Assembly: GCA_029932675.1 (NCBI GenBank)
Contig: JAOZPP010000004.1
Span: forward strand, 1 to 64,000
Source: a bacterium
GTDB taxonomy: Bacteria > SM23-81 > DAOVCL01
DNA length: 64,000 nt
Direction: 5' to 3'
Of this stretch, positions 10,938 to 61,722 are shown piece after piece. Below the pieces are notes generated by a model. It had not been told where the DNA came from. It saw only the letters and a list, made by a program, of their open reading frames with translations, and made no database searches. The stretch's first letter is position 1; each line of letters starts with the position of its first letter. The translations under genes were made by a program, and so were the position numbers.

Positions 10938-12248
10938 CTATCCAAAGGGGAATTTAGGGATCCCCTTCTTACCCATCCTCTTCACCATCTTATCTATCAT
11001 CAAAAACTCCTTCAGGAGCTTGTTTACATCCTGAACAGAGGTGCCACTACCCCGTGCGATCCTCCTCTTCCTGCTTCCATCGATAAGCTGAGGTTTCCTC
11101 CTCTCTATTGGGGTCATAGAATTGATTATCGCCTCAGCCTTCATTAGTGCCCTCTCATCAAAGGTCGCCCCCCGTAAGGCCCCCCTCCCCCATCCAGGGA
11201 TTAGCTCCACCAGGGACTGAAGAGGACCAAGCCTCTTCACCTGCTTTATCTGATCCAAGAAGTCCTGAAGGGTAAATTCCCGTTTGAGGAGTTTGGCCTC
11301 CAGCTTCTTAGCCTCCTCTTGGCTGATCGACGCCTGGGCCTTCTCCACCAAGGTGACTACATCCCCCATCCCCAAGATCCGGGAGGCCATCCGATCCGGA
11401 TAGAAGATCTCCAAATCCTCCGGCTTCTCCCCTACCCCCACCATTCTGATTGGCCTTCCAGTGGCTGCTCTCATTGAGAGGGCTGCCCCACCCTGAGCAT
11501 CACCATCAAGCTTGGTGAGAATGATTCCATCAATACCTAACTTGGCTTCAAACTCGTCTGCTACCCGCACTGCTTCCTGGCCGGTCATCGCATCGGCCAC
11601 CAGGAGTATCTCCTCCGGCGCGATGGCCTTCTTTATTTGGCGCAGTTCCTCCATCATCTCCTCATCGATGTGTAACCTACCGGCGGTATCTAAGATGAGG
11701 AGGTCAAAACCTGAGCTCTGGACCCAGTTGCACGCCCTCTGGCAGAGCTTGACTGGATCCTCCCCCTTTGTAGGTGAATAGACCTCTACCCCCAAGCTTT
11801 CACCTAAGATCCTCAATTGATCAACTGCTGCTGGTCGATAAGGATCTGCTGGAACAAGAAGGGGCTTGAACCCCTGGGAATTAAACCTCTTGGCTAACTT
11901 TCCCGCAGTCGTTGTCTTCCCCGAACCTTGTAGACCAACCAACATAATCTTTGAGCCCCGCGTAGGCCGAAGAGGAGAAGGTTGCCCCCCCAAAAGCTCG
12001 ACAAGCTGATCATAGACGACCTTGATCACCTCCTGTCCCGGGGTTATGCTCTGGGTAACCTCCCTTCCAATGGCCTCCTCCTCCACCCTCGCGATAAACT
12101 CCTTGGCCACCTTATAATTCACATCGGCCTCCAAGAGCACCTTCCTCACCTCCCTCAGGGAATCGGAGATGTTCCTTTCGGTGAGCTTTCCCCTACCGAG
12201 TATCTTCTTGAAGGCCCCATTTAGCCTATCCCTAAGCTCCTCAAACAT
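10938..12248 (-). CDS. ffh: signal recognition particle protein Ffh (SRP54)
   Basis: 436 residues, standard Ffh length. N-domain helices (1-95) are followed by the GTPase domain with P-loop GLQGSGKTT (105-113), DTAGR near 191 and [14 protein letters not shown] near 248. The methionine-bearing M domain (about 300-430) ends in [11 protein letters not shown]. It binds signal sequences on ribosomes and SRP RNA and delivers them to FtsY at the membrane. Its start overlaps the end of leuD by 8 bases, so it is the last gene of a dadD-like, leuC, leuD, ffh transcript. No SRP RNA gene was recognised nearby. Confidence 0.97.
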
Positions 12249-47117: not shown

Positions 47118-48515
47118 TTGAAATTGCCGCAATTCAACAAGATAACAGATGAGGTTTTGAGGGAGATCTCGGATATATGTGAGGTGACCACAGATACTGG
47201 GGTGACGGAAGCCTATGGGCGGGATGAGACATCTGACCTCTTCTCCCTCCCCGAGGCTGTGGTCAGGCCGACAAAGGCCGAACAGATCTCCCAACTCCTG
47301 AAGCTTGCCTCGCAGAGGCTCTTTCCAGTAACCCCTCGAGGATTGGGGACAGGCGTCTCCGGAGGGGCTATTCCGGTGGAAGGTGGACTGGTCATCTCCT
47401 TAGAGAAGATGAATCGGTTAAAGGATATCGACAAAGAGAATATGATGGCTGTGGTCGAACCAGGGTTGATCACTGGAGAGCTCCAAGGCAAGGTGGAGGA
47501 GTTGGGGCTCTTCTATCCCCCTGATCCGGCAAGCTTGGATTCCTGCAGCTTAGGGGGTAATGTGGCCGAGGGAGCAGGAGGCCCCCGCGCCTTTAAGTAT
47601 GGCACCACCAAGGATTATGTCACTGGCCTGGAGTTGGCCTTAGCCTCTGGGGAACTAATTAGCTTAGGGGGAAAGATCATCAAGGATGTCTCCGGCTATA
47701 ATCTCATTGGCACAATAATTGGCTCCGAGGGAACCTTAGGAATAATTACTTCTATCACCCTAAGGCTCATCCCCCTCCCCCCCCACAAGGTTGACCTCCT
47801 TGTCCCCTTCCCTTCCCTGGAAAAGGCAGGGGAGACCGTCTCCCTCTTAGTGGAGAAGGGGATCGTCCCGGCCACCATCGAGTTTATGGAAAGGGAAGCC
47901 CTCTTAGCCTCAGAGCAGAAGATCAAGAGGGAGGTCCCCTTCAGGGAGAAAGCGGCCCAACTGCTCATTGAGATAGACGGATATAAAAAGGAGGAGCTGG
48001 AGGGGCTCTATGAAACTGTGGGAGAGATATGCCTGGACCAGGGGGCAGAGGATGTCTTAGTGGCCGACAACCGGCCAGACCAGGAGAGGATGTGGGAGGC
48101 CCGCCGGGAGATCCCCGAGGGCTTAGCCCTCCTCAGTCCGGTGATTGACAAGGAGGATGTGGTCGTCCCCCGCAACCAGATAGCCACCTTCCTCAGGGCA
48201 AAAGGGGAGATAGCCAAAAAGTATGGGGTAAAGATCGTCTGCTTTGGCCATGCCGGTGATGGCAACATTCACACCAATGTCCTCAAAGAGGAGATGGCTG
48301 ATGAGCAGTGGAAAAAGGTAAGAAAGGAGATAGACTATGAGCTTATCCGCACCGTCCTCTCCTTGGGAGGAACAATCACCGGGGAACATGGGATAGGGGT
48401 AGTGAAGAGGGAATATCTGAAGAAGTTCACCAATCCCACCACCCTCTCCCTGATGCGGGGGATAAAACAGGCCTTCGACCCCCAAGGCATAATGAACCCC
48501 GGGAAGGTCTTGTGA
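47118..48515 (+). CDS. FAD-linked oxidase GlcD family (glycolate/D-lactate dehydrogenase type)
   Basis: 465 residues. FAD_binding_4 domain (about 40-215) with FPVTPRGLGTGVSGGAIPVEGG near 72 and GGNVAEGAGGPRAFKYGTTKDYVTGLE near 147. The C-terminal oxidase domain (about 225-460) has CFGHAGDGNIHTNVL near 375 and GGTITGEHGIGVVKREYL near 415. It oxidises a 2-hydroxy acid; glycolate, D-lactate and others are possible. TTG start with GGAGGTG upstream. The island starts at its stop codon: the RadC-like gene overlaps by four bases. Confidence 0.88.
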   Translation: MKLPQFNKITDEVLREISDICEVTTDTGVTEAYGRDETSDLFSLPEAVVRPTKAEQISQLLKLASQRLFPVTPRGLGTGVSGGAIPVEGGLVISLEKMNRLKDIDKENMMAVVEPGLITGELQGKVEELGLFYPPDPASLDSCSLGGNVAEGAGGPRAFKYGTTKDYVTGLELALASGELISLGGKIIKDVSGYNLIGTIIGSEGTLGIITSITLRLIPLPPHKVDLLVPFPSLEKAGETVSLLVEKGIVPATIEFMEREALLASEQKIKREVPFREKAAQLLIEIDGYKKEELEGLYETVGEICLDQGAEDVLVADNRPDQERMWEARREIPEGLALLSPVIDKEDVVVPRNQIATFLRAKGEIAKKYGVKIVCFGHAGDGNIHTNVLKEEMADEQWKKVRKEIDYELIRTVLSLGGTITGEHGIGVVKREYLKKFTNPTTLSLMRGIKQAFDPQGIMNPGKVL

Positions 48516-48901
48516 TGGGGAAGAAAGAGGTTAAAAGTGCCTTTACTGAAGAAGGAAGGCAAGTTGAGTGGCGCCACCCCGGGGGTAAATTACGGGATTG
48601 GGGCCCCAAGTCATTAACAAATCAGGAACTTCTAGCGATCCTTATTTCTACAGGAATACCAGGTAAAACTGCGGAAGATATTGCTAAGGAAATACTAGAT
48701 AAATTTGGCTCCTTTAAAGGAATGGCAAACCAGCCGCTAGAAAAATTTCTCCAATTTAAAGGAATGGGAGACGTTAAAATTATTCGCATTGCAGCGGCTT
48801 TTGAGATAGCAAGAAGAATAACAGGGGAGGTTTTAGAAAAATATGAAGAGCAAAAAACCCAAAATTCCGGGAAAAGCCACACGAATATCAAACCCCTTTG
48901 A
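48512..48901 (+). CDS. truncated RadC-like protein (UPF0758 N-terminal helical domain only)
   Basis: 129 residues (GTG 48512 or ATG 48515). GGKLRDWGPKSLTNQELLAILISTGIPGKTAEDIAKEIL (segments 24-62) and FLQFKGMGDVKIIRIAAAFEIARRI near 83 match the helix-hairpin-helix N-terminus of RadC/UPF0758 proteins. The MPN/JAB metalloprotease-like half with its HxHPSG motif is missing, and the frame ends inside the next gene with a 59-base overlap. The overlap makes translational coupling to the restriction-methylase likely, so this may be a DNA-binding partner of that enzyme rather than debris. It marks the border between the housekeeping region and the island. Confidence 0.75.
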   Translation: MMGKKEVKSAFTEEGRQVEWRHPGGKLRDWGPKSLTNQELLAILISTGIPGKTAEDIAKEILDKFGSFKGMANQPLEKFLQFKGMGDVKIIRIAAAFEIARRITGEVLEKYEEQKTQNSGKSHTNIKPL

Positions 48902-51900
48902 CATCACTACTCATAGAACGGAGTGGACTTGTGCTGCCAAGCTTGCTGAGTGGATGAACTCCTACATTAAGGACAAGAATTTACCTTTGGGCACTGCAGA
49001 GGTAGAAACCATCCAGGAAGGTGACCGAAAACGAGTCGATATTATTCTATTTGATAGTCCAGCAAATCAAAAAGTGCTCTGCGTCATTGAAACCAAACAA
49101 CCTTATTTTGATGTCTTTAATGAGAGCGAGCTCAAAGAACCTGCACGTAAAAAAGCCGTTAAGAGAAAAGCTCCGTACTTTGCTACCTGTAATTTCCAGT
49201 GGTTCATTTGGTTCAATACGGAGAGAGTGAACAAGATGGATCCAGAGGAAAGACAAATTCTCGAAAAATATCACCTCTCGGAAATTGAGGATTTAGACTA
49301 CATAGAGGAACCAAGGTTCAAGAATCCCATCATAACTGGGCTCAGTAAGTTCTTACAGGAGCTAGTTGAGGTATCCAAGGGCAAAAAGCCTGAGCCATTA
49401 CTTCCGATTGATGAGTTTCTGATATTTCGTCTCCATGAGAAAGTCAACAGACTTGCTCGCTATTACAGAGTCATAATAAGAGATGCTACTCATAAAGACA
49501 CGAAGTTTCAAAGTAAACTCCAGAAATGGTTTATAGATCAACAATGGCAGTTTACCTGGAAAGATTCTGATTACGATAAGGTGGCGAGACAGACTGCTTA
49601 CCTTCTAATCAACAAAATCCTCTTCTATTACCTACTTAAAGCAAAAAAGACTTACCTTGCTTCTCTAGAGATTCCTGAAGACTTGACAAAAGGTGGGCAA
49701 CTTCAGGCACAATTGCAAGCTTATTTTAGCTATGTTTTGAAAAAGATCGACTATGAGACTATCTACAGCACCGATTTTATTGACCAGACGGCCTTCCCTG
49801 ACAACAAAGAGGTTGTCTGTGAAATCAAAGACCTTGTTAATATCTTAAAAAGATATGACTTTTCTGAAATAGGGTATGAAATCATAGGAAATATCTTCCA
49901 ACGTCTCATCCCTCAGAAAGAACAGCACAAGTTAGGTCAATACTTCACAAATCCTGACATCGTGGATCTCATTTTAAGATTTTGTTTGAAACATGAGAAG
50001 GATAAAATATTGGACCCGTCCTGTGGTGCCGGAACTTTCCTTATGAGGGCATATAAACACAAAAAGATAATGAATAATAGACTCTCGCATAGGGATATTC
50101 TTGAAACTCTTTGGGGAGTAGATATTGCAAAGTTTCCATCTCACCTTGCTACAATAAATCTCGCACTACAAGATTTAGGAGAAGATAAGAATTACCCAAA
50201 TATAGCTCAGGAAGACTTTTTTAATCTGCTTACTAGTCCTGAAGGATTAGAACTCCCTGAAAAATGGAGAAAAATTAGAGCAAAAACCCTCGGGGTGAAG
50301 GAAAGAGAGATCACTTATCCCAGATGGTTTGACTGTATTGTGGGGAACCCCCCATACACAAGACAAGAAGAGATTCCAGATATTACAGGTAAGTTAAGTT
50401 ATAAAAAGAAATTGATTAAAAGTGCTCTTTACAATGTAAATCACAAAAAGATTGCCACTATTTCCAAAAGGGCGGGCATATATGTCTATTTCTTCATTCA
50501 TGGAATGAAATTCTTACGGAATGGGGGAAGATTTGGTTTCATTGTTTCAAATTCTTGGCTTGATGTTGACTATGGGAGGGGACTGCAGGAATTCTTTTTG
50601 AAAAATTATAAAATCGTCGCCATCATTGAATCAAAGGTTGAACGATGGTTTGAAACAGCGGATATAAACACTTGTATAGTAATACTTGAAAAATGTAAAG
50701 ATACAAAACAACGGAATGAGAATTTCGTGAAGTTTGTTTACTTATTCAAACCGCTCCGTCATTTTGTCCCTCCGGCACAAAAGAGATGGGAAGAACAAAT
50801 TAAACGAGTTGATACTATTGATAGTTTAATCAAAACAATCCTTGCCCATAAAGAGTTCTACCAAAATGAAGAAATAAGAATCTATCCTAAATTACAAAAA
50901 GAACTCTGGATGGAGGGCTATGATAAAAGGAATAAAAAATATGCTGGTTCAAAATGGGGTAAATATATTAGAGCACCAGAACCAATTATAAAAAAGATCT
51001 TGATGAATAGAAGATTATCTCTCCTGGGTTCTTTCGTCAAGGCTATTATGGAAGGCGAACCCACAGGTGCAAATGAATTCTTTTTTGTCACAAGAGAAAT
51101 CATAAAGAAATTCAAAATAGAAAATACTTATTTGCATCCTGCGTTTAATAGTCCAAAGGATTCTAAATCAATACTTATTACACAAACAAACAGCTATAGT
51201 TGGAAACTTCTTACGAACGCTTCAAAAGAGGAGTTGAAGGGAACAAATATTTTGAAATACATCAAATGGGGAGAAAGAAAAGGATTCAGGAAACACTATT
51301 TTAAGGAAGATATCTGGTATTCAAGAAGCGATAGAAAGGCAGATTTATTGATTCCGAGAGGGATATACCAGAGGTTTATTTGCTTCTACAATGTTGATGG
51401 TCTTATTGCAAGTGATAGGTTTGTTGAAATTTTCATGCGATCAAAAGAGCTGAGAGAAATTACCGGAGCTTTCCTTAACTCCACTCTGTATTTTCTTTTG
51501 CTTGAACTTTACTGTCGGACAAATTTGGGTCAAGGGGCTTTGGATATTCAACCAACTGATATTAGAAAAATACCAATTCCAGATTTGACGGAACTTGATA
51601 AAAAGCTTGTTCAGCATATTCAAGAAGTCTTTGAGCAAGTTAGCAAAAGAGAGGTGAATGTTATATTTGAAGAACTCGGTGTCAATTCTCCAGGAGAAGT
51701 TTCCCTTGACAAGGTCAAACCTGACCGCAGGGAACTGGATAAGATCGTTATGGGGGATATTTTAGGTTTGACGGAAGAGGAACAACTTGAAGTCTATCGT
51801 GCCGTCGTTGACCTGGTAAGTTCCCGGATTAAGAAGGCAAAGAGTGTAGAGCGGAAAAAGAAAATTAAGGGGGGCATAGATATTGATGCCTTTGTGAAGA

Positions 51901-52325
51901 CAGTAATAGAGGGAATTGGAAAAAAGACTTTGGCAGAATTTTATCAAGAGAAAATACTAACACAAAAACCACTTTACACGAAGAAACTCCCTAAACCCAC
52001 GAATGAGGTGGGGTTTGAAGCGGAGTTGGGTTTGAAATTTGAGAAGGAAATCCACAAATATCGACTAAATTCAGGTAAAAAACATATTTTCTGCAAATCT
52101 GAGCCCGAAGCCCGCTATCTAAAAGTTTGGATAGAAGCGGGATTGGAAAGTGTCAAAGTTCCCAAAGATGAAGATCGTTTAGTTAAGATAGTCCCTCAAT
52201 TGGAAAGATTGATGGAGAAAACCAAAAAGATAATAGAGTCCTATACTGACTCTATCCTCCAACCTAAGCTCCGCCAGAAAATCTTCCACCAAATCTGGCA
52301 GAAATTAACTGAAGGAATTGAATAA
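48843..52325 (+). CDS. type IIG-like restriction enzyme/N6-adenine DNA methyltransferase
   Basis: 1160 residues. The N-terminus holds a PD-(D/E)xK nuclease (RVDIILF near 64 and VIETKQPY near 80) in an HSDR_N-like fold. A helical region follows, then an N6-adenine methylase with GQYFTNPDIVDLILRFC near 364, motif I DPSCGAGTF near 391 and motif IV GNPPY near 500. The C-terminal half carries TaqI-like target-recognition sequence. Cutting and methylating activities in one chain define type IIG. The tail includes PDRRELDK and EEQLEVYRAVVDLV near 960-990, pieces of which recur between later genes. AT-rich compared with flanking housekeeping genes, a sign of transfer. Recognition sequence unknown. 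Confidence 0.88.
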   Translation: MKSKKPKIPGKATRISNPFDITTHRTEWTCAAKLAEWMNSYIKDKNLPLGTAEVETIQEGDRKRVDIILFDSPANQKVLCVIETKQPYFDVFNESELKEPARKKAVKRKAPYFATCNFQWFIWFNTERVNKMDPEERQILEKYHLSEIEDLDYIEEPRFKNPIITGLSKFLQELVEVSKGKKPEPLLPIDEFLIFRLHEKVNRLARYYRVIIRDATHKDTKFQSKLQKWFIDQQWQFTWKDSDYDKVARQTAYLLINKILFYYLLKAKKTYLASLEIPEDLTKGGQLQAQLQAYFSYVLKKIDYETIYSTDFIDQTAFPDNKEVVCEIKDLVNILKRYDFSEIGYEIIGNIFQRLIPQKEQHKLGQYFTNPDIVDLILRFCLKHEKDKILDPSCGAGTFLMRAYKHKKIMNNRLSHRDILETLWGVDIAKFPSHLATINLALQDLGEDKNYPNIAQEDFFNLLTSPEGLELPEKWRKIRAKTLGVKEREITYPRWFDCIVGNPPYTRQEEIPDITGKLSYKKKLIKSALYNVNHKKIATISKRAGIYVYFFIHGMKFLRNGGRFGFIVSNSWLDVDYGRGLQEFFLKNYKIVAIIESKVERWFETADINTCIVILEKCKDTKQRNENFVKFVYLFKPLRHFVPPAQKRWEEQIKRVDTIDSLIKTILAHKEFYQNEEIRIYPKLQKELWMEGYDKRNKKYAGSKWGKYIRAPEPIIKKILMNRRLSLLGSFVKAIMEGEPTGANEFFFVTREIIKKFKIENTYLHPAFNSPKDSKSILITQTNSYSWKLLTNASKEELKGTNILKYIKWGERKGFRKHYFKEDIWYSRSDRKADLLIPRGIYQRFICFYNVDGLIASDRFVEIFMRSKELREITGAFLNSTLYFLLLELYCRTNLGQGALDIQPTDIRKIPIPDLTELDKKLVQHIQEVFEQVSKREVNVIFEELGVNSPGEVSLDKVKPDRRELDKIVMGDILGLTEEEQLEVYRAVVDLVSSRIKKAKSVERKKKIKGGIDIDAFVKTVIEGIGKKTLAEFYQEKILTQKPLYTKKLPKPTNEVGFEAELGLKFEKEIHKYRLNSGKKHIFCKSEPEARYLKVWIEAGLESVKVPKDEDRLVKIVPQLERLMEKTKKIIESYTDSILQPKLRQKIFHQIWQKLTEGIE
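51714..51848 (+). other. parent copy of the recurring methylase-tail module
   Basis: Within the restriction-methylase gene, this 45-codon stretch (VKPDRRELDKIV, LTEEEQLEVYRAVVDLV, then KKAKSV) is the in-frame relative of the fragments at 53245-53379, 59473-59607 and 61648-61722. The leaders at 52484-52519 and 58712-58747 match only its last dozen codons. Confidence 0.7.
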
Positions 52326-52520
52326 GGTGTAAAAGCAGTGGTAAAATTGAAGAAATGGCGGGTTGAATGAAAGCGCTTGACCTACTTACGATGGGGGGTG
52401 GGAGGCTGATCCAAGATCCAGGTATGGGGCTGGGAAAGTCTGGGACGGAGGGTAGAGGACATCAAATCGAGAATAGTAGAGGGCTGAAAAATAGGCTAGT
52501 GAAAGCGAGAAGTGTGTGAG

Positions 52521-53033
52521 ATGAAAGTAACCGCAGACGCATCTATTCTAATCCACCTTGCAGCCATTGGAAGATTTTATCTATTGGAGGAGTTATTCGG
52601 TGAGGTAATGATCCCAGAAAGTGTCTATAAGGAGGTAGTTGTAGAAGGCTGGGGGCTTTCCGGTTCTTTAGAAACGGCGGAAGCCCTAAGAACGGGCCTT
52701 ATAAAAGTAGGTGAAGTAATAGACAAGGAGAAAGTCAGAGAGTTCTCACAAAGATATAGAGTCAGCGCAACCAATGCCGAGGTCATTCAATTATCAAAAG
52801 AGTTGAACTCTAAAATTGTTTTGGCCGATGAGGAAGAAGTTAGAGATGCTGCACAGGAAGCTGGCCTTCAAGTGAAAGGTTGTTTGGGCATACTTGTAGA
52901 TTCAGTGAAAAATAAGATCATCTCTTCTCGACAGGCTGTCCAAGATATCGACAATTTAGTTGCATCAGGTTATCGCATTAGCAATGATATAATTGATGGA
53001 TTGAAAAACACTTTAAGGAGATGGGACAGATGA
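52521..53033 (+). CDS. PIN-domain toxin (DUF3368 family), copy 1
   Basis: 170 residues from ATG 52521 (frame open from GTG 52512). MKVTADASILIHLAAIGR gives the first PIN acidic residue, ESVYKEVVVEGWG the second, and SKIVLADEEEVRDAAQEAG near 101 the DE pair of the C-terminal half; these coordinate metal for RNA cleavage. DUF3368 proteins pair with UPF0175 small proteins as type II toxin-antitoxin systems. The antitoxin overlaps its 3' end. The immediate leader reads as the last twelve codons of a methylase tail (GLKNRLVKARSV stop). Confidence 0.85.
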   Translation: MKVTADASILIHLAAIGRFYLLEELFGEVMIPESVYKEVVVEGWGLSGSLETAEALRTGLIKVGEVIDKEKVREFSQRYRVSATNAEVIQLSKELNSKIVLADEEEVRDAAQEAGLQVKGCLGILVDSVKNKIISSRQAVQDIDNLVASGYRISNDIIDGLKNTLRRWDR

Positions 53034-53248
53034 AAGCCTCCTTGATGATACCAGAAAGGATAAGGGAAAAGTTCCTGGGGGAGATACTGGATATGTATGC
53101 GCAAGGTGAGTTGGCTGCCAGCAAAGCTGCTCAGATGCTTGGCATACCGAGGGCTACTTTCTATAGCCTATTGGCTGAAACAAACACCCCTCTCCCCAAA
53201 AAGCTTAATGATAGCATCAGAAAAGAGTTGGAAGAATTATTAAAGTGA
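53030..53248 (+). CDS. UPF0175 family antitoxin, copy 1
   Basis: 72 residues from ATG 53030; ATG 53021 is in frame, but the AAGGAG (53011-53016) abuts it, whereas it lies at a good distance from 53030. A helix-turn-helix, ASKAAQMLGIPRATFYSLLAE (near 30-50), matches UPF0175, so it should bind its own promoter and block the PIN toxin through its C-terminus. It overlaps the toxin gene by four bases when started at 53030. The toxin-first order is common for this family. The stop overlaps the GTG that opens the next tail fragment. Confidence 0.83.
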   Translation: MKASLMIPERIREKFLGEILDMYAQGELAASKAAQMLGIPRATFYSLLAETNTPLPKKLNDSIRKELEELLK

Positions 53249-53379
53249 CACCTGACCGCCGGGAAGTGGATAGAATCGTCTTTGAAGCCCTGAAATTAAC
53301 TGAAAAGGAACAACTTGAAGTTCACCGGGCAGTGGGGGAGTTGGTGAAGAACAGGCTCGTTAAGGCAAGGAGTGTGTAG
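53245..53379 (+). pseudogene. methylase C-terminal tail module (44 codons)
   Basis: GTG overlapping the antitoxin stop opens VTPDRREVDRIVFEALKLTE, then KEQLEVHRAVGELVKNRLVK and ARSV, stop. This is the last part of an N6-methylase of the 48843-52325 type without its body. It stays open and could be translated as a coupled microprotein, but debris of a methylase 3' end is simpler. Confidence 0.6.
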
Positions 53380-53403: not shown

Positions 53404-54519
53404 ATGAGCGAATTGATGAAGGCAGATTATAAAGAACTTCTTGCAAAGGTTTCGGGTCTGCTTGAGCGGGCAAGACACGAAGCTGTAAGAAGGATTAATA
53501 CGGTTATCGTAGAAACCTATTGGGAAATTGGAAGATTGATTGTAGAAGAGGAACAGAAGGGCAAAAAACGGGCCGAGTATGGTAAAAGGTTGTTACAGAA
53601 ATTATCAATTGATTTGACAAAAAGATATGGACGGGGATTCTCAACCGACAATTTAGAGGCTATGAGAAAGTTTTACTTGATTTATCCTAGTTTTGGCAGG
53701 AAGATTTCCGAGACAATGTCTCGGAAATTAGGAAAGACTCAAGCTGATATCCCAGAGATTGAATTTCTGAAGAATCTTTCATGGTCTCACATTCGTGAAA
53801 TTATAACACTTGAGGAACCTCTTGCAAGGTCTTTTTATGTGATAGAGACAATTAAAAATAACTGGTCAGTGAGGGAATTGAAGAGACAAAAAGGCTCCCT
53901 ACTCTTTGAGAGACTTGCCCTGAGCAAAGAGAAAAAGAAGGTAATGGAGCTGGCAAAGAGAGGGCAGATTATTGAGAAGCCCGAGGATATAGTCAAAGAC
54001 CCCTATGTATTGGAGTTCCTGGGTATCCCTGAGAGACATCACTATACTGAATCACAGTTGGAACAGGCTCTTATTGACCATCTTCAAGAATTTCTTTTAG
54101 AACTCGGTAAAGGCTTCACTTTTGTTGCCCGACAAAAGAGGATTACTATTGACAACGAACATTTTTACATTGACCTGGTCTTTTACAACCGCATCGTGCG
54201 GTGTTTTGTCTTGATTGACCTCAAAGTAGGCAAGTTTACTCCGGCTGATACTGGGCAAATGAATTTTTATCTCAATTACATCAAGGCCAATGAAGTGATG
54301 GAGGATGAAAACCCTCCTGTGGGCATTCTTCTCTGCACTGAGGCTGACAGAAGCAGAGTCTTTGTAGAGTATGCCCTGGGAGGATTGGATAATAAAATTT
54401 TCGTCTCCAAATACAAATTGTATCTCCCGACGAAAAGAGAACTTGAGGCAGAAATCAAGAAAGAGACGGCTCGTTTACAACTTATTTCACCCAGGGAGAT
54501 GAAAAGCAGCAAAGATTAG
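53404..54519 (+). CDS. DUF1016/YhcG-type PD-(D/E)xK nuclease protein
   Basis: 371 residues from ATG 53404 (TTG 53398 also possible). The N-terminal DUF1016 domain reads ARHEAVRRINTVIVETYWEIGRLIVEEEQKGKKRAEYGKRLL in segments near 23-65, followed by LSWSHIREIITLEEPLARSFY near 126. The C-terminal nuclease fold carries HFYIDLVFYN near 254 and FVLIDLKVGKFTPADTGQMNFYL near 269, which supplies the D and DLK catalytic residues. These proteins are frequent in defence and restriction islands, and their target is unproved. It follows toxin-antitoxin copy 1 and is the first gene of the segment enclosed by the 811-bp repeats. Confidence 0.87.
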   Translation: MSELMKADYKELLAKVSGLLERARHEAVRRINTVIVETYWEIGRLIVEEEQKGKKRAEYGKRLLQKLSIDLTKRYGRGFSTDNLEAMRKFYLIYPSFGRKISETMSRKLGKTQADIPEIEFLKNLSWSHIREIITLEEPLARSFYVIETIKNNWSVRELKRQKGSLLFERLALSKEKKKVMELAKRGQIIEKPEDIVKDPYVLEFLGIPERHHYTESQLEQALIDHLQEFLLELGKGFTFVARQKRITIDNEHFYIDLVFYNRIVRCFVLIDLKVGKFTPADTGQMNFYLNYIKANEVMEDENPPVGILLCTEADRSRVFVEYALGGLDNKIFVSKYKLYLPTKRELEAEIKKETARLQLISPREMKSSKD

Positions 54520-54587
54520 GTTTTCTTAAATATAGGAATGATTCATCTTGAAGCTGAGGCATTTCCATTTTATAAAACACCTTAGCA

Positions 54588-55448
54588 GTGGCAATTGAGA
54601 ATCTACTTGATACAGACTGGCGAGAGAAATTGAAATCTCTTGGCCTTGAGGGGTTTCTTGATCTCTTGGGCACAGAAAGGCTCGCACAGAAGAAGGCCCG
54701 GATGGCAAATCTTTTAAGAATTGCCAATCCCGATGAGGCACTTTATCGGGAGATCATGGTTGCCCTGGGCTACAAAAACAATAAGGTTCAGTTTCTGGAG
54801 CTGGCACTAATACTACCCTATTCAGAGATTCGTGCCTTAAAAGATAGTGAAAGAATTGAGAAGGCTTTACTCTATCGGGCAGGATTTCTGCAATCGAAAG
54901 ATGGGCTTCCGGAGAATTTCGATGGTTCCCTGAAGATGGATCGCTCGGTATGGCAACTCCGGGGCACAAGACCGGCAAATTTTCCTGCTACCAGAATAAA
55001 GGGTATCGCACCACTGCTCTCTGAGTCCTGCGAAACAGGGCTGTGCAAGCTAATCGAAGCGAAGATTGCTGACAACTACCTGCCGACCACAAATAGAAGA
55101 TCCGCTGGTAGCTTCTGCAAAGAGCTCACAAAAATCTTTACTACGGGCGAGAGGAAAGCAGTGGGTCAAACAAGAGCTTTGGAAATCCTCTTTAACATAA
55201 TCCTGCCGTTCTTTATGACTTATTTTGAAAGGGAGGGTAAACGAAAATATGCAGAGTTCCTCCTAAGCATTTACGATCAACACCCTATTCTCTCAGAGAA
55301 CTCTGTTATCAGGGCGATGAAGGCTCAACTATTCGGTGAAGATAAAAAGAAAGCCAGGCAAGTGGTCAATTCAGTGAGGCGCTATATGGGGTTAATTCAC
55401 TTGCACAATGTTGTATTGAAGGGAGAAAAGCTCGATGACTATTCCTGA
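54588..55448 (+). CDS. DUF2851 family protein, N-terminally short
   Basis: 286 residues from GTG 54588; most family members exceed 400. Family-like features: ALYREIMVALGYKNNKVQFLELALILP (segments near 51-77), RPANFPATRIKGIAPLL near 127, ILFNIILPFF near 202 and KGEKLDDY at the end. The N-terminal part is absent: an in-frame TAA stands five codons upstream. The stretch 54577-54691, starting just before the GTG, is repeated at 61372-61486, so this start lies at a recombination breakpoint. Function unknown. The last 14 bases overlap the helicase gene, so the two are translationally coupled and probably act together. Confidence 0.75.
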   Translation: MAIENLLDTDWREKLKSLGLEGFLDLLGTERLAQKKARMANLLRIANPDEALYREIMVALGYKNNKVQFLELALILPYSEIRALKDSERIEKALLYRAGFLQSKDGLPENFDGSLKMDRSVWQLRGTRPANFPATRIKGIAPLLSESCETGLCKLIEAKIADNYLPTTNRRSAGSFCKELTKIFTTGERKAVGQTRALEILFNIILPFFMTYFEREGKRKYAEFLLSIYDQHPILSENSVIRAMKAQLFGEDKKKARQVVNSVRRYMGLIHLHNVVLKGEKLDDYS

Positions 55449-58400
55449 CATCATCGATAACAGCGCCGAGGGGCGCAGATTGGCCGATGTCTTGAAGGAA
55501 ATTATTGTCCCCGGCACCAAAGTGTATATCGCTTCAGGCTATTTCAACCTGGAAGGTTTCAGACTCATTAGTGAGAAATTGAAGGAGACGCAAGGAGTGC
55601 GCCTTCTTCTTGGCCGGGCTTTATCCCCCCAGGATGTGCGTTCACCAAAGTTTTTCCTTGAAGAATTAAGAGAAGAGGCAGAGGCAAAGATGGGGACCCC
55701 AGAGGCCGAAGGTCTAATCCGGGAATTCCTCCGCTGGCTTGAGAACCCTGGGGTTGGGGTGAAGATCTACAACAAGGGATTTTATCACGGAAAATTCTAT
55801 ATCGTTGAAGGAGTTCCGGTTTTGGGAGCAGTGGCTATCTCTGGCTCTTCGAACTTCACCCAAGCTGGCCTTACCAGAAATACCGAATTCAACACCGTCT
55901 TAAAGCAGGGGAGCGCGGTAAAAGAAACAAAGCGGGTTTTTGACCGACTATGGAATGAGAGCGAAGACTACAAACAGGACCTGAAATCGCTTTACTCCGA
56001 TTTCACCGCCGCTTACAGTCCTTATGAAATATATATCAAGGCTCTCTACGCCTATTTTAGGGATAAGTTTGCTTCGGTTTCTCCAACTGATGAGGTTCCC
56101 AGCCCTATCGTTCTCACTGATTTTCAGCGCGACGGCTATTTAGCTGCCCTCGATACCCTTGATCGCTATAGCGGTGTTCTGCTCTCCGACTCCGTGGGGT
56201 TAGGTAAAACATATCTTGCCCTGAAGCTTCTGGATGACTTTGCCTATAGGTTGAGAGAAAAGGCTCTGGTCATCTGTCCGGCGCAACTTAAGGGGATTCT
56301 TTGGGAACCCAAACTGAGAGAAGCCGGCATCAGAGCAGATATTGTCCACAGGGAGCGGGTGAGCCGGAAGGACTTCCCAATAGAAGAGTACCAAGATCAC
56401 GACCTTATCGTCGTGGACGAGTCTCACAACTTTCGCAACTCCCAGACAAACTGTTGGAAAAACCTCTCCTTATGTGTGATAAGAGGTAAACCAAAGAAAG
56501 TAATACTTATCACTGCAACTCCTGTAAATAACTCCGTTTTTGACCTTTACAACCAGATTCGCTTGATCACCAAGGACAGGGACAGTTTCTTCGCCGCGGC
56601 TGGTATCCCAAGCCTATGGGGCTATTTTCTTAGAGCAGATAAGGAGAAAGAGACTCTATACGATCTTTTAGAGGAAATAGCTGTTAGGCGCAGCCGGCCT
56701 TTTATCAAGAGGAACTATCCGGATGTAGCAATTGATGGTGAGCCGATAAGATTTCCAGAAAGGGAGCTTCACACAACCCGATACAACCTTGAGCAGACCT
56801 ATCAGGGGCTTTACAAAGAATGCTCTCAAACCATCGAAAACTTGACCCTGGCAAGCTACAACATTGAGTCGTATCGGAAGGAGATCAGACAAGAGCAGCT
56901 TGAGCTTTTCGAGCATATCAACAAGGCCTTTCTTGCCAAAGGGTGGTCTGAAAAAGAGAGCAAGGACTTCTTAATGAAATTGGGTAGGAATGAGGCGGTA
57001 ATTTCGATTTTGAAGGTGCTCTTTTTAAAGCGGCTTGAATCCAGCATTGAGGCCTTTAGAATCAGCATAGAAAGATTGGTTGATTTTCAGAGGAAATTTC
57101 TTCAGGTCTTTAAGGAAGGAAGAATACTGGATAGAGACGCCTATCGCAAGTTCTTCCTTCAAAGCGGTGAGGATGAATCTACAGAGGAAGGTGAGAGCAT
57201 CTCCACTGTCCTAGAGAAGTTGCCACAGATAAATTTGGAAGATTTCGATGTAGAGGCAATCAAACGCTCTGTTCAGAAGGATATCGGTGCTCTTGAGCAA
57301 ATTTACAAAAAGGTCGAGAGAATAAAATCGGGGAAAGATACGAAGCTGCAGATTCTCAAAGAGAAATTAAGCGGTGAACTAAAGGGAAAGAAAGTCATCA
57401 TCTTTACCTATTTTAAGGATACTGCTCGTTACCTTTATCGCTGGCTAGGCGGCAACAGGGAGTGGCTGGAAAGTGTGGTCTCGCCTGAGGAGCGAAGGGC
57501 GGTGGAAAGTTTCTTGAGCCACGCCTCTCTTTCATCCCCGAACATCTCAATCACGGATAGTGGGATAGACCCTGATGAGCGTAAGAACAGAATCATGCGC
57601 TTCTCCCCGATAGCCAACGGTCGCCCTGAGCTAAAAGGAACAGAAAGGGAGATTCAAATCCTCATCTCAACCGATGTCCTCTCGGAAGGCCAGAATCTGC
57701 AGGATGCTGATACGGTAATAAATTATGATCTTCCCTGGAATCCTGTTCGCCTCATTCAGCGAGTGGGAAGGATCGATCGTCTCAAGTCTCCGCACCCTCT
57801 GGTGCATCTTTACAACTTCTTCCCTGAAGACGCATTGGAATCCCTCCTAGGCATTCTGGAGAGGCTTTATCAGAAACTCGATGCCATTAATCGCAGTGTA
57901 GGCTTAGATGTAAGCACCTTAGGGGAGACGCCTACGCCGAAGGATTTTGGCTTCATTCGTGACCTTTTTGCAGGAAAAGCCGAGGTTTTAGAGGAGTTAG
58001 AAGGGATGTCCGAACTGGCCGTCGGTGAGTTCCTTAAACAAGAACTCTTGCAGTTTTTAGAAAAGGTAGGTGAAGAGAAGATAAGGAGAATACCCAATGG
58101 TGTGGGAAGTGGTCTACACAAAGAGGGACAGCATGGACTTTTCGTGGCTTTCAAAGACAAGGAGCGCCATTATTGGTGCTATTACGACTTCAAGACTGGT
58201 AAGGTCCTTGAGAACAAACTCCAGGTCATTCGACTTATCAGATGCGAAGAGAGTGAACCACGGATAGAGCCGGATTTTGATGTCTATGAGGTCATTGAGA
58301 AAGCGAAGAGACATATCCTCGCCCGTTTGCGCACTTCTTCCTTAAAGCCGCCCATGCTTAAGGCACCTCAAAACCAAATCGTAAACTGGTTACAAGGATT

Positions 58401-58629
58401 AGCTTCCAAAGCAACTGATCTTCTTGAATATTTTCGCGAACCTTTGCCAGAGTTATATCTGCGGGAGCTTCGTTCCTTATGGATTAACAGGGCCTCATCA
58501 GAGGAGGTACTCATCCTTAAGCTAAGGGAGTTCAAAGAGTCCCATCCAATTTCACCAGCAATGGAAAGAACTCCACCGCCTGAAGAGCCCAAGGTCAAAG
58601 TTGTTTGCTATCTTGCAGTTATGAGTTAG
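55435..58629 (+). CDS. PLD-nuclease-like/SNF2-type helicase fusion protein
   Basis: 1064 residues. The N-terminal phospholipase-D-like domain (about 15-180) has one HxK motif, YHGKFYIVEG near 116, and GSSNFTQAGL near 137. An SNF2/superfamily 2 helicase follows: DSVGLGKTYLALKLL (Walker A, near 252), VVDESHNFRNSQ (Walker B, near 325) and ITATPVNNS near 361. The C-terminal lobe has DVLSEGQNLQDADTVINYD near 744 and LIQRVGRIDRL near 773 (motif VI). A single HKD-type motif means it would act as a dimer if it cuts DNA. PLD and SNF2 proteins are separate components in DISARM; here they are fused. Coupled to DUF2851 by a 14-base overlap. Confidence 0.88.
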   Translation: MTIPDIIDNSAEGRRLADVLKEIIVPGTKVYIASGYFNLEGFRLISEKLKETQGVRLLLGRALSPQDVRSPKFFLEELREEAEAKMGTPEAEGLIREFLRWLENPGVGVKIYNKGFYHGKFYIVEGVPVLGAVAISGSSNFTQAGLTRNTEFNTVLKQGSAVKETKRVFDRLWNESEDYKQDLKSLYSDFTAAYSPYEIYIKALYAYFRDKFASVSPTDEVPSPIVLTDFQRDGYLAALDTLDRYSGVLLSDSVGLGKTYLALKLLDDFAYRLREKALVICPAQLKGILWEPKLREAGIRADIVHRERVSRKDFPIEEYQDHDLIVVDESHNFRNSQTNCWKNLSLCVIRGKPKKVILITATPVNNSVFDLYNQIRLITKDRDSFFAAAGIPSLWGYFLRADKEKETLYDLLEEIAVRRSRPFIKRNYPDVAIDGEPIRFPERELHTTRYNLEQTYQGLYKECSQTIENLTLASYNIESYRKEIRQEQLELFEHINKAFLAKGWSEKESKDFLMKLGRNEAVISILKVLFLKRLESSIEAFRISIERLVDFQRKFLQVFKEGRILDRDAYRKFFLQSGEDESTEEGESISTVLEKLPQINLEDFDVEAIKRSVQKDIGALEQIYKKVERIKSGKDTKLQILKEKLSGELKGKKVIIFTYFKDTARYLYRWLGGNREWLESVVSPEERRAVESFLSHASLSSPNISITDSGIDPDERKNRIMRFSPIANGRPELKGTEREIQILISTDVLSEGQNLQDADTVINYDLPWNPVRLIQRVGRIDRLKSPHPLVHLYNFFPEDALESLLGILERLYQKLDAINRSVGLDVSTLGETPTPKDFGFIRDLFAGKAEVLEELEGMSELAVGEFLKQELLQFLEKVGEEKIRRIPNGVGSGLHKEGQHGLFVAFKDKERHYWCYYDFKTGKVLENKLQVIRLIRCEESEPRIEPDFDVYEVIEKAKRHILARLRTSSLKPPMLKAPQNQIVNWLQGLASKATDLLEYFREPLPELYLRELRSLWINRASSEEVLILKLREFKESHPISPAMERTPPPEEPKVKVVCYLAVMS

Positions 58630-58748
58630 AAACTAAATGGGTAAACTTAGAAAGGTTATGAAAACCTGGGGATATCAGGGTAGAGGACATCAAATCGAGA
58701 ATAGTAGAGGGCTGAAAAATAGGCTAGTGAAAGCGAGAAGTGTGTGAG

Positions 58749-59261
58749 ATGAAAGTAACCGCAGACGCATCTATTCTAATCCACCTTGCAGCCATTGGAA
58801 GATTTTATCTATTGGAGGAGTTATTCGGTGAGGTAATGATCCCAGAAAGTGTCTATAAGGAGGTAGTTGTAGAAGGCTGGGGGCTTTCCGGTTCTTTAGA
58901 AACGGCGGAAGCCCTAAGAACGGGCCTTATAAAAGTAGGTGAAGTAATAGACAAGGAGAAAGTCAGAGAGTTCTCACAAAGATATAGAGTCAGCGCAACC
59001 AATGCCGAGGTCATTCAATTATCAAAAGAGTTGAACTCTAAAATTGTTTTGGCCGATGAGGAAGAAGTTAGAGATGCTGCACAGGAAGCTGGCCTTCAAG
59101 TGAAAGGTTGTTTGGGCATACTTGTAGATTCAGTGAAAAATAAGATCATCTCTTCTCGACAGGCTGTCCAAGATATCGACAATTTAGTTGCATCAGGTTA
59201 TCGCATTAGCAATGATATAATTGATGGATTGAAAAACACTTTAAGGAGATGGGACAGATGA
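58749..59261 (+). CDS. PIN-domain toxin (DUF3368 family), copy 2
   Basis: The protein is identical to the copy at 52521-53033, including the ATG after a tail fragment (58712-58747) and the overlap with the antitoxin gene. Because the sequence is identical, each antitoxin should neutralise both toxins, and loss of one copy by recombination would still leave the cell protected. Confidence 0.85.
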   Translation: MKVTADASILIHLAAIGRFYLLEELFGEVMIPESVYKEVVVEGWGLSGSLETAEALRTGLIKVGEVIDKEKVREFSQRYRVSATNAEVIQLSKELNSKIVLADEEEVRDAAQEAGLQVKGCLGILVDSVKNKIISSRQAVQDIDNLVASGYRISNDIIDGLKNTLRRWDR

Positions 59262-59476
59262 AAGCCTCCTTGATGATACCAGAAAGGATAAGGGAAAAGT
59301 TCCTGGGGGAGATACTGGATATGTATGCGCAAGGTGAGTTGGCTGCCAGCAAAGCTGCTCAGATGCTTGGCATACCGAGGGCTACTTTCTATAGCCTATT
59401 GGCTGAAACAAACACCCCTCTCCCCAAAAAGCTTAATGATAGCATCAGAAAAGAGTTGGAAGAATTATTAAAGTGA
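59258..59476 (+). CDS. UPF0175 family antitoxin, copy 2
   Basis: Identical to 53030-53248, with the same start choice (ATG 59258 at a proper distance from AAGGAG rather than ATG 59249). Its stop overlaps the GTG of the tail module at 59473. Confidence 0.83.
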   Translation: MKASLMIPERIREKFLGEILDMYAQGELAASKAAQMLGIPRATFYSLLAETNTPLPKKLNDSIRKELEELLK

Positions 59477-59607
59477 CACCTGACCGCAGGGAACTGGATA
59501 GAATCATCTTCGAGGCTCTGGGCTTGACTGAGGGGAAGCAACTTGAGGTCTAGCGGGCGGTGGTGGAGTTGGTGAAGAACAGACTGGTTAAGGCAAGGAG
59601 TGTATAA
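59473..59607 (+). pseudogene. methylase C-terminal tail module with internal stop
   Basis: VTPDRRELDRIIFEALGLTE, then GKQLEV, a TAG at 59551-59553, and RAVVELVKNRLVKARSV, stop. Same module as 53245-53379 but diverged beyond the 811-bp repeat and interrupted, so this copy cannot be a working 44-residue protein. Confidence 0.65.
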
Positions 59608-59625: not shown

Positions 59626-61314
59626 ATGACGAGAAAAGAAATACAAAGGCTTATCAAGCAACCTGAAGGACAATTCTTTGAGAAGAAGAGTTGCCTCGAA
59701 AAGAAAGCGGATGGAAGAACAAGAAGCCGTAAGGCGAAAGATGTAGCTAAGGATGTGGCAGAGACTTTATCAGCTATGGCTAATGCTGATGGAGGTTCGC
59801 TAATCCTCGGTGTGGAGGATGATGACACAGTCAGCGGTGTTAACCATCCCAGCGACCGTATCCAAGTTATTGAGAAAGCTCCTTTGAATCTTGTTAGACC
59901 ACCACTGAAAACGACTGTAGCGAGAACATATATTCAAAAGCAAATGTTACTGGTATTCAGTGTTGACTGGAGTCCAAAGGTTCACCAGCTCACCGATGGT
60001 AGATACCTGCTCAGGGTTGGTGACAGCAACATACCATTTCCTGCAAAGGATATTGAGGCCATCAAAAGGTCTAAATTACAAGCACTATGGGAAAACCAAA
60101 TTGTTGAAGGAGCAACTGTTGAAGACCTCGACCATGAGCTTATGAGAGAATTAGCAAGCAAAGTTGGGATAAACGCCAACATAGAGAAATTCCTGCAACA
60201 CTATAAGCTTATTGAGTATTATAACCGCACAATAAAACTAAAACGGGCTGCACTGCTTTTGTTTGGGAAAGACCCACTAAGGTGGCATCCGCGTTGTGGT
60301 ATAGATTTTGTGAAGTTCGAGGGAACAGAAAGGAAGTATGGAGGGGCGCTTAATATTGTGAAAAGAGAAAGAATCGAGACCCCACTTGTTTTACTTATCG
60401 AAGAGACCTACAAGGTAATCGCCCCTCATATCAAGGAAAGGCAGATTCTACACGATCTATTTTTCGTGGAGCAGCTTGAGTATCCATCCTTTGCCTGGCA
60501 GGAGGCAATAGTCAATGCTGTAGCTCATCGAGATTACAGTATATTAGGTCTTTCCATTGAAATATGGATGTTCGATGACCGGATCGAAGTGAGAAGCCCT
60601 GGGCTGCTCCCTGAGCCTGTAACTATTGAAAGACTTCTTAAAAGGGAGCGTATTCATGCAAGCCGCAATCCACTAATTGTCAGAGTCCTGACAGATTTGG
60701 GGTATATGCGTGAGATGGGAGAAGGAATCCCAAGAATGTTTGAAGAGATGGAGAAAAACGGACTCTATTCACCAGAACTAAGGATTGAAGCCGATTCCAT
60801 ATTTACTGTGGTTTTGAAGAATCAACCCGTTTATACTCCGGATGATTTGCGATGGCTTGAAAGGTATTCAACTATCCCTTTGAGTTCGAATCAGAAAAGG
60901 ATTTTGCTCTTTGCAAGAGTTCATGGAATGCGCTTTACGAGTCGAGATTACCAGAAGATTTGTAGTGTAGACATCTATTCAGCATCACGTGATATCAAAG
61001 ATCTTATGAGAAAGGGCATAGTACGCTTACAAAAGAAGGGTGGAAGAATTTATGAGATATTGGAAGGCAAGGAAGATGAGTTTCCTGAATTTCCCGAAGG
61101 GTACCTTGAAGTAAGAATGATTGTCGAAAGAAAGGGATATGTAAAAAACGAAGACTTGAGGGGTGTTTTGAAGCTATCAAGAGTTCAAGCCAAGTGGTTG
61201 TTCCAAAAATACTTAAATTTAGGTCTTTTGAAAATGGAGGGTCAGGGGCGGGGGGCAAGGTATGTTCCGACAGAAAAATTCTGGAAGACGAGAAATGGAC
61301 AATTCAAAAAATAA
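59626..61314 (+). CDS. AlbA/Schlafen-like DNA-binding and HATPase regulator
   Basis: 562 residues. The N-terminal AlbA_2 (Schlafen-like) domain shows QFFEKKSCLEKK (16-27), AETLSAMANADGGSLILGVEDDD near 45 and GRYLLRVGDSN near 124. A HATPase_c_4-type region follows, with PSFAWQEAIVNAVAHRDY near 287 and EVRSPGLLPEPVT near 324. Winged-helix segments occupy the C-terminus (about 415-550). Such proteins are called putative transcriptional regulators or RecG-like ATP-binding proteins; several occur in defence islands. It could control the toxin-antitoxin and helicase genes upstream, but that is inference. Direct ATGGACA words and a hairpin follow the stop (61315-61366). Confidence 0.83.
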   Translation: MTRKEIQRLIKQPEGQFFEKKSCLEKKADGRTRSRKAKDVAKDVAETLSAMANADGGSLILGVEDDDTVSGVNHPSDRIQVIEKAPLNLVRPPLKTTVARTYIQKQMLLVFSVDWSPKVHQLTDGRYLLRVGDSNIPFPAKDIEAIKRSKLQALWENQIVEGATVEDLDHELMRELASKVGINANIEKFLQHYKLIEYYNRTIKLKRAALLLFGKDPLRWHPRCGIDFVKFEGTERKYGGALNIVKRERIETPLVLLIEETYKVIAPHIKERQILHDLFFVEQLEYPSFAWQEAIVNAVAHRDYSILGLSIEIWMFDDRIEVRSPGLLPEPVTIERLLKRERIHASRNPLIVRVLTDLGYMREMGEGIPRMFEEMEKNGLYSPELRIEADSIFTVVLKNQPVYTPDDLRWLERYSTIPLSSNQKRILLFARVHGMRFTSRDYQKICSVDIYSASRDIKDLMRKGIVRLQKKGGRIYEILEGKEDEFPEFPEGYLEVRMIVERKGYVKNEDLRGVLKLSRVQAKWLFQKYLNLGLLKMEGQGRGARYVPTEKFWKTRNGQFKK

Positions 61315-61366: not shown

Positions 61367-61371
61367 GCAAG

Positions 61372-61722
61372 ACACCTTAGCAGTGGCAATTGAGAATCTA
61401 CTTGATACAGATTGGCGAGAGAAATTGAAATCTCTTGGCCTTGAGAGGTTTCTTGATTTCTTGGGCACAGAAAGGTTCGCACAGAGGATTATCCAGACGA
61501 CAAACCTCACCCAAGTGCACTCTTCTTAGGTTGGATTAAAAGCAAGCCCTTGCATGTTTTAGCTGCCTTAGATGAAACCAATGAATGGGCTTACATTATT
61601 ACCGCATATGAACCAAGCCTTGAATACTTTGAGCCTGATTTGAAAACAAAGAACAACTTGAAGTTTACCGGGCAGTGGGGGAGTTGGTAAAGAACAGGCT
61701 CGTTAAGGTGAGGAGTGTGTGA
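61372..61722 (+). pseudogene. mosaic of three gene fragments: DUF2851, DUF4258 and methylase tail
   Basis: 61372-61486 repeats the start of the DUF2851 gene (54577-54691) with a few mismatches. About 61484-61650 then reads DYPDDKPHPSALFLGWIKSK, PLHVLAALDETNEWAYIITA and YEPSLEYFEPDLKT, which matches the middle and end of DUF4258 toxin-like proteins without their start. 61648-61722 is a methylase tail, KEQLEVYRAVGELVKNRLVK then VRSV, stop. The junctions are abrupt, so this is a recombination graveyard rather than a gene. Confidence 0.7.

Follow-up and report, generated by a model that had tools for sequence, protein, structure and literature searches.

Three genes that follow one another on one strand of a bacterial genome, encoding a DUF1016/YhcG nuclease, a DUF2851-related protein and a fusion of a PLD (HKD) domain to an SNF2 helicase, raise the question of whether they are a defence system of their own. 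They lie in a window of 64,000 nucleotides (positions 1 to 64,000 of contig JAOZPP010000004.1, assembly GCA_029932675.1; GTDB lineage Bacteria; SM23-81; DAOVCL01). The source is a draft genome of 116 contigs, here labelled G000, in which the window contig is C109. An earlier note on this DNA proposed that the three work together as a distinct DNA-targeting system. Our answer assigns the parts differently. The second and third proteins are probably parts of a restriction-like system whose core is a helicase-nuclease plus an Eco57I-type N6-adenine methylase; here, DUF2851C (the name used for the stand-alone C-terminal half of DUF2851) would be an addition made in one clade of methylases, defined by a C-terminal tail, and other defence genes would be swappable cargo, their junctions marked by scars of that tail.

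The three genes are:

53404..54519, + strand: DUF1016/YhcG PD-(D/E)xK nuclease (PADLOC PDC-S02), cargo; from Pfam and PADLOC
54588..55448, + strand: DUF2851C, with a predicted HhH-GPD (DNA glycosylase)-like fold; from Pfam and AlphaFold models
55435..58629, + strand: HKD(PLD)-SNF2 helicase of the PADLOC C3a139 family, overlapping DUF2851C by 14 nucleotides (nt)

Much of what had been read from the letters stands. All three open reading frames (ORFs) exist on the + strand in the order proposed, as judged from coordinates and Pfam domains. The first begins with an ATG at 53404 (its frame is open back to 53398), stops at 54519, and encodes DUF1016_N (1.3e-42) and YhcG_C nuclease (2.6e-59) domains. 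The third encodes, as described, a 1064-residue fusion of a single-HKD PLD domain to an SNF2 helicase (Pfam PLDc_2 4e-12, SNF2 1e-10, Helicase_C 5e-18), with one H118xK120...GSSN motif and intact helicase motifs (Walker A GLGKT, DESH, QRVGRIDR). The overlap of the last two is exactly 14 nt (55435-55448), and an identical overlap is found in two other phyla, in loci from Calescibacterium (L036) and Syntrophaceae (L054). Because it recurs there, the translational coupling of these two genes is conserved. The second protein answers to its earlier description in part. Its match to DUF2851 (PF11013) is above the cut-off (5.4e-20), but covers only profile positions 136-369 of 375; the N-terminal domain is absent from the window protein, which holds the C-terminal half of the family and not its full length.

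Which gene, then, belongs with the helicase? The survey on which the following rests covered 386 genomes (loci are labelled L and genomes G). Most loci come from metagenome assemblies, many of them cut off by contig ends; functions were assigned from domains and gene context, and structures are AlphaFold predictions. The window helicase matches the PADLOC family C3a139 (PDLC01075, HKD+Snf2) over residues 15-886 with E 1.5e-88, and belongs to that family. HKD-SNF2 helicases are present in 93 of the 386 genomes, and an Eco57I-type methylase adjoins the helicase gene in nearly all contigs long enough to judge. The pair is found also on cyanobacterial, Deinococcus, Rhodococcus and haloarchaeal plasmids, with a weak methylase profile match on the last two. 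The constant partner of the HKD-SNF2 helicase is an Eco57I-type N6-methylase. The fusion that had been put forward as part of a new set is itself already a PADLOC family, and HKD-SNF2 with an N6-methylase has been described in Type-2 BREX-related systems, although both without DUF2851.

Genes of other kinds can stand between these partners. On a Microcystis plasmid (L197, 7505-8972), a CBASS-like pair of Nucleotidyltransferase and SLATT genes lies between methylase and helicase; the same slot holds DUF262 in L154 and a sigma-70-like gene in L153. The source genome also carries a second HKD-SNF2 helicase (G000:C87:1099-4374, L114), of a subfamily other than that of the window helicase; downstream of it, where the contig ends, is a fragment of a methylase.

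And which gene belongs with DUF2851C? A genome-wide scan with four DUF2851C proteins as queries gathered 29 loci from many phyla, one archaeal metagenome-assembled genome included. In the gene maps, DUF2851C is the constant gene close to the end of the operon. Usually the HKD-SNF2 helicase gene comes first, followed by the Eco57I-type methylase (1100-1300 amino acids), the variable genes and DUF2851C; in operons with a helicase of the window's subfamily, the helicase comes last, after methylase, variable genes and DUF2851C. Upstream of DUF2851C, a methylase or what is left of its 3' end is present in 22 of the 23 loci with at least about 3 kb of upstream sequence (this count, like the two-by-two counts below, was tallied by us from the locus tables).

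The helicase is, of course, often close by. Stand-alone DUF2851C was found in 9 of the 386 genomes (once as a pseudogene, once as a fragment), and in 7 of these 9 it lies within ~10 kb of a C3a139-type helicase, for which a simple random-placement model gives a chance of ~5e-13; of 28 further loci, many of them on short contigs, 10-11 have the helicase as well. The co-occurrence suggested by the earlier note is real when tabulated. As the unit of a system, the pair fares less well. Label changes were counted on the helicase and methylase trees and compared with 500 shuffles. The DUF2851C label needs 11 changes on the helicase tree, against a shuffled mean of 11.8 (159 of the 500 shuffles were as low), and is scattered there; on the methylase tree it needs 6 against a mean of 13.1, a value reached by 0 of 500 shuffles, and is clustered. 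Most of the methylases concerned belong to one clade, whose members share a conserved C-terminal tail of 45 residues (PDRKxLDDIVFDALGLTEEERKEVYWAVAELVKNRLEKARSV). Of the helicase-centred loci in which the methylase end is visible, 6 have both the tail and DUF2851C, 2 the tail only, none DUF2851C only, and 20 neither (Fisher P=7e-5). Because DUF2851C clusters on the one tree, is scattered on the other and is associated with the tail, its co-evolving partner is the methylase of the tail clade; the helicase, a candidate for the same role, was rejected on the scatter of its tree.

The stand-alone form is the one to consider here. In the plasmids searched, the sole DUF2851 is full-length and in a non-defence context, in Thermomicrobium (L155:8503-9873); the stand-alone form is therefore the one linked to defence. 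No DUF2851C was found in the viral contigs searched.

These results bear directly on the proposal that DUF1016, DUF2851 and PLD-SNF2 act together without a methylase. In its favour, the three genes are contiguous, the overlap of the last two is kept in distant phyla, and DUF1016 stands directly 5' of DUF2851C in the window, in L033 and, truncated, in L034. Elsewhere, however, the gene preceding DUF2851C is a different cargo; in the window, a tail scar stands between DUF1016 and the genes upstream of it; and a methylase is the neighbour of the helicase family almost everywhere. DUF1016, taken by the earlier note for a core component, is interchangeable cargo. As a general system the trio is largely refuted, and we consider it very unlikely. 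What survives of the claim to a distinct DNA-targeting system is an operon of defence type, directed at DNA, with conserved coupling and different from DISARM, but not a self-contained module of three genes.

The cargo between methylase and DUF2851C, as named with PADLOC and Pfam, differs among genomes (the names given for L049, L039 and L041 rest on sequence features):

Window, L033 and (truncated) L034: DUF1016
L033 and L040: Schlafen, which in the window is cargo downstream of the helicase
L032 and L034: Lamassu-like LmuA with an SMC-like protein
L035: short pAgo with SIR2
L048: Hachiman-like pair (PDC-M23)
L055: TIR protein related to Dsr1
L053: PDC-S06 ATPase
L044, L047, L056 and L058: ImmA/IrrE peptidase with PIN
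L051 and L059: DUF3800
L049: three-Cys-motif partner-like and DUF5131-like genes
L039 and L041: gamma-glutamylcyclotransferase-like gene
L054: DUF4258 protein

RAYT-like (Y1) transposase genes also occur in the cargo slot (L042, L043, L045, L047, L050, L060; and L233 at 11667-11993), often immediately 5' of DUF2851C or 3' of a tail scar. They may be passengers.

How might such cargo have arrived? The genes around the trio in the window carry possible traces of the process:

48512..48901, + strand: RadC N-terminal-like (UPF0758_N) ORF (Pfam 3e-17), directly upstream of the IIG enzyme family in a conserved arrangement
48843..52325, + strand: type IIG-like N6-methylase with NPPY and an N-terminal D..ETK nuclease-like motif; its tail is internal, at 51711-51848
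52440..52516, + strand: degenerate methylase-tail relic, containing the left breakpoint of an 811-bp identical repeat
52512..53033, + strand: PIN-domain toxin (PDC-S70), copy 1
53031..53248, + strand: small helix-turn-helix-like antitoxin ORF, copy 1 (from its translation), whose stop overlaps the start of the tail scar at 53242
53242..53376, + strand: orphan methylase tail (scar) of 45 codons, ending 27 nt before the DUF1016 ATG
58668..58744, + strand: degenerate methylase-tail relic, second copy
58740..59261, + strand: PIN-domain toxin, copy 2, identical to copy 1
59259..59476, + strand: small helix-turn-helix-like antitoxin ORF, copy 2
59470..59604, + strand: orphan methylase tail (scar) with one internal TAG and, inside it, the right breakpoint of the 811-bp repeat (59487)
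59626..61314, + strand: Schlafen/AlbA_2 + HATPase_c_4 protein, cargo
61369..61520, + strand: second DUF2851C head, truncated, 90% identical to the first at the nucleotide level over 139 nt (61369-61507)
61642..61719, + strand: orphan methylase tail (scar), 3' half only

The two flanking toxin-antitoxin cassettes of the earlier note are real, and turn out to be 811-bp, 100% identical direct repeats (52449-53259 and 58677-59487) on either side of the three-gene set. Their left breakpoint (52449/58677) lies in degenerate tail copies and their right breakpoint (53259/59487) inside full ones. These tails had been overlooked, both the orphan copies at 53242, 59470 and 61642 and the degenerate ones at 52440 and 58668, as had the DUF2851 head copy at 61369-61507. 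Every tail copy of the window genome falls within one 10-kb stretch. Within 61369-61720, the DUF2851C head stub is followed by a fragment resembling, by eye, a DUF4258-type toxin and then by the tail scar; this is a collapsed cassette.

Such scars are not peculiar to the window. Tail copies without a methylase stand between cargo genes in 11 other loci (L032, L033, L034, L042, L043, L047, L053, L055, L056, L057 and L058). The end of the scar lies at most 62 nt from the start of the next gene on the same strand in 13 of 14 cases, against 6.8% of random positions (P ~9e-15), and the spacing is the same as at true junctions of methylase and cargo. In an unbiased whole-genome scan, the tail profile is present in 22 of the 386 genomes, with orphan tails in G000, G001, G073, G195, G214 and G331. 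A tail stands before the ImmA+PIN unit in L044, L056 and L058, and after it in L047 and L058. Most simply, units made up of a tail and a cargo would have entered at the 3' end of the methylase gene, or been copied by way of the tails, and pushed older tails aside.

A bolder form of this reading, which we hold tentatively and at somewhat less than even chances, makes the methylase 3' end the recombination site of a gene-cassette platform. Each unit would consist of a methylase tail and a defence cargo, and successive captures would displace older tails downstream to leave arrays of defence genes with tail scars, an accretion resembling that of integrons without a recognisable integrase; the terminal DUF2851C would be a fixed DNA-binding partner of the methylase with an HhH-GPD fold. 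A literature search, to which most subscription papers were closed, brought up nothing on the capture of cassettes at methylase ends.

Exact long repeats in a draft genome of many contigs can, of course, be mis-joined, so that the 811-bp repeats and tail copies might be artefacts of assembly. The tail copies, however, differ from one another (64-90% nucleotide identity among full or half copies) and other assemblies have them too, among these the same-genus genome G001 and the complete chromosome record of Ignavibacteria Ch128a; the scars, besides, do not depend on the 811-bp repeat. Artefact is an extremely improbable explanation.

What, then, serves as methylase in the window? The type IIG restriction-methylase named as a neighbour by the earlier note is there (48843-52325), and it fills the operon's methylase position. 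In addition to its D..ETK nuclease-like N-terminus, it has a 158-residue extension past the tail. No cognate methylase lies close to the helicase within the window. The RadC N-terminal fragment directly 5' of the IIG gene forms with it a conserved pair in at least four genomes (IIG enzymes 53-59% identical); besides the window, the pair is in G001 (L233), G303 (L235) and G264 (L236). In G001 it occupies the same chromosomal place (a flanking gene is 82% identical in DNA) and is followed by a scar and a RAYT-like gene, after which the contig ends; searches of G001 found neither helicase nor DUF2851C. Because the same locus exists there without the helicase, the window IIG enzyme is the resident one. 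The helicase/DUF2851C segment was probably imported behind it with only the tail of its own methylase. The cognate methylase may have been lost from this genome, and the system here may be incomplete or re-paired.

Loss can be taken further, to the view that the window is a junkyard in which the broken remains of several defence systems lie side by side and the helicase no longer works. The truncated DUF2851 head, the tail fragments, the stop in one tail and the missing cognate methylase would all suit it. Yet the helicase and DUF2851C are full length with motifs intact, their order and 14-nt overlap match those in distant genomes, and 12 genomes have scars placed precisely at cargo junctions. 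We regard general decay as distinctly unlikely.

What might DUF2851C do? AlphaFold models of the window protein and of its relative in L040 are all-helical (pLDDT, the predicted local distance difference test, 94 and 95). With the structure aligner used for a second look, HhH-GPD proteins take rows 1-12 for the window model, the best at Z 8.4 and 4.4 Å across 193 residues; for the L040 model they fill rows 1-49 of the top 50 (Z 8.1-4.6, the next unrelated row having Z 2.8). The top matches are AGOG, Ogg, AlkA, EndoIII and the phage base-modifying enzyme PUGT. Because HhH-GPD rows are exclusive in the second model, the overall fold is most likely HhH-GPD-like. A conserved hairpin, FKGIGxxRKxEMFFN (window G193, R196, N203), lies between two helices at the position expected for the HhH element; in the sequence alignment its G-x-G-x-x-R is largely conserved, the catalytic Lys position is Q/T/A, and there is no clear Asp after it. 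D49, E50, R54, K66, R128, N131, R136, R196 and N203 are invariant polar residues. The predicted fold would suit a protein that binds DNA and reads a base. Full-length DUF2851 has an additional N-terminal domain, and its C-terminal half should share the fold.

A protein of this class might also be an active effector, a DNA glycosylase that excises hypermodified phage bases, so that phages evading methylation-guided restriction by modifying their DNA would still be attacked. The outcome would be that of Brig1 and Brig3, glycosylases proven as anti-phage effectors (PMC11078745, PMC13160076), with another fold. The HhH-GPD-like fold in two models, the match to PUGT and the many invariant polar residues are consistent with this, as is the precedent. 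Against it, the lyase position of the candidate hairpin has no conserved Lys, and no catalytic Asp is recognised beyond the hairpin; further, the association of DUF2851C with one clade of methylases is more like that of a partner or reader than that of an effector acting freely. An active glycosylase is unlikely.

Within the restriction-like reading, the domains suggest a division of labour. The methylase would mark self DNA; the helicase would translocate on unmarked or foreign DNA, which its PLD domain would cut. DUF2851C would join in the clade of methylases with the 45-residue tail, most likely binding DNA and flipping or reading a base for the methylase complex; a role as specificity factor or modified-base reader, rather than nuclease, is suggested by its HhH-GPD-like fold. 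Other defence genes (in the window, the PIN toxin-antitoxin, DUF1016 and Schlafen) would be inserted after the methylase as interchangeable cargo, each unit carrying a copy of the methylase 3' end, with displaced copies staying as scars. Such scars suggest that recombination through the tail adds, duplicates and removes units.

Several observations weigh against this account. Most helicase-methylase pairs lack DUF2851C. The methylases found with DUF2851C have no tail in L050, L053 and L060, and tail methylases are apparently frameshifted in L040, L041, L049 and L054. The window IIG enzyme shares no more than 32% identity with methylases of the tail clade and is an outlier on the methylase tree. 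As to the fold, a Z of ~8 is modest for an all-helical protein and weak if taken alone; sequence profiles give no link from DUF2851C to EndoIII/MutY (hhalign probability ~1%), Foldseek against the PDB and viral models found nothing significant, leaving the second-look aligner as the one that shows the HhH-GPD ranking, and Q/T/A at the catalytic Lys position leaves glycosylase activity unsupported. A PDB sequence search with DUF2851C gave no match, and among weak Pfam matches of 23 DUF2851C proteins, DUF2851 alone recurs. In the four loci with a split tail methylase, the frameshift or stop leaves helicase and DUF2851C untouched, a pattern that phase variation, decay or sequencing error could each produce.

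If the account holds, DUF2851, which has no assigned role in the literature searched (one mention, in an unrelated paper, most subscription papers lying beyond the search), gains a genomic partner, the N6-methylase, and a testable fold class. One kind of defence-island growth becomes visible in sequence, with cargo behind a methylase gene and a copied 3' end marking each junction. The tail would then be a search handle for new defence genes, anything between two tails being a candidate, and defence-gene capture could be traced event by event.

How does this compare with known systems? DISARM shares the ingredients of SNF2 helicase, PLD nuclease and adenine methylase, and there is weak similarity to DrmD and DrmMI; here, however, PLD and SNF2 are fused. 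The earlier note was right to set the locus apart from DISARM for want of DUF1998 genes: DUF1998 (DrmB, PF09369) has 0 matches in the whole genome, and the window helicase scores 140.6 bits against a curated DrmD cut-off of 610. Membership in DISARM was rejected. A DUF3427 recognition domain defines the SauUSI-like type IV PLD-helicases; the window helicase has no Pfam match to it at E up to 0.1.

PbeABCD and CxC-ABC systems have an HKD nuclease fused to an SF2 helicase (PMC10853773). That fusion is common to both, but similarity to PbeA is only weak here, and no ABC ATPase match was found with Pfam among the island proteins tested. HhH-GPD glycosylases and phage PUGT resemble DUF2851C in predicted fold; the catalytic Lys position is not kept, and there is no sequence-profile link. 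Brig1, of the uracil-DNA-glycosylase superfamily, and Brig3, which resembles AAG, act alone or with one partner (PMC11078745, PMC13160076); their folds differ from that predicted for DUF2851C.

Type-2 BREX-related systems combine an HKD-endoDNase fused to a Swi2/Snf2 helicase with an N6-methylase, have been read as restriction-modification-like, and recruit auxiliary effectors (PMC12839542, Rakesh and Krishnan 2026). The same fusion is present in the window helicase. Those systems are centred on a DUF499 ATPase with DUF3780, and DUF2851 is unmentioned in the paper that describes them (PMC12839542). DUF499 is not at the locus: in G000 it is on contig C19 only, not C109, and most DUF2851C genomes have none. 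DUF3780 has no match among eight window-region proteins, the part of the genome searched for it. Membership was rejected for lack of DUF499 at the locus. The DUF499 protein on C19 (G000:C19:16855-18477; L202, L204) shares its contig with an SNF2-helicase match (C19:9345-9641), possibly a separate BREX-related system.

C3a139 is, in PADLOC, a model of a single protein, and the literature search found no mention of it; the methylase partner, DUF2851C and the cargo slot lie outside the model and are features of the loci described here. With type IIG restriction-methylases, finally, the likeness is that the methylases match IIG models and that the window enzyme has a nuclease-like N-terminus. The difference is that here, in most loci, a methylase and a separate HKD-SNF2 helicase stand in one operon, a combination of helicase-nuclease and methylase whose sequences suggest a likeness to ATP-dependent restriction systems.

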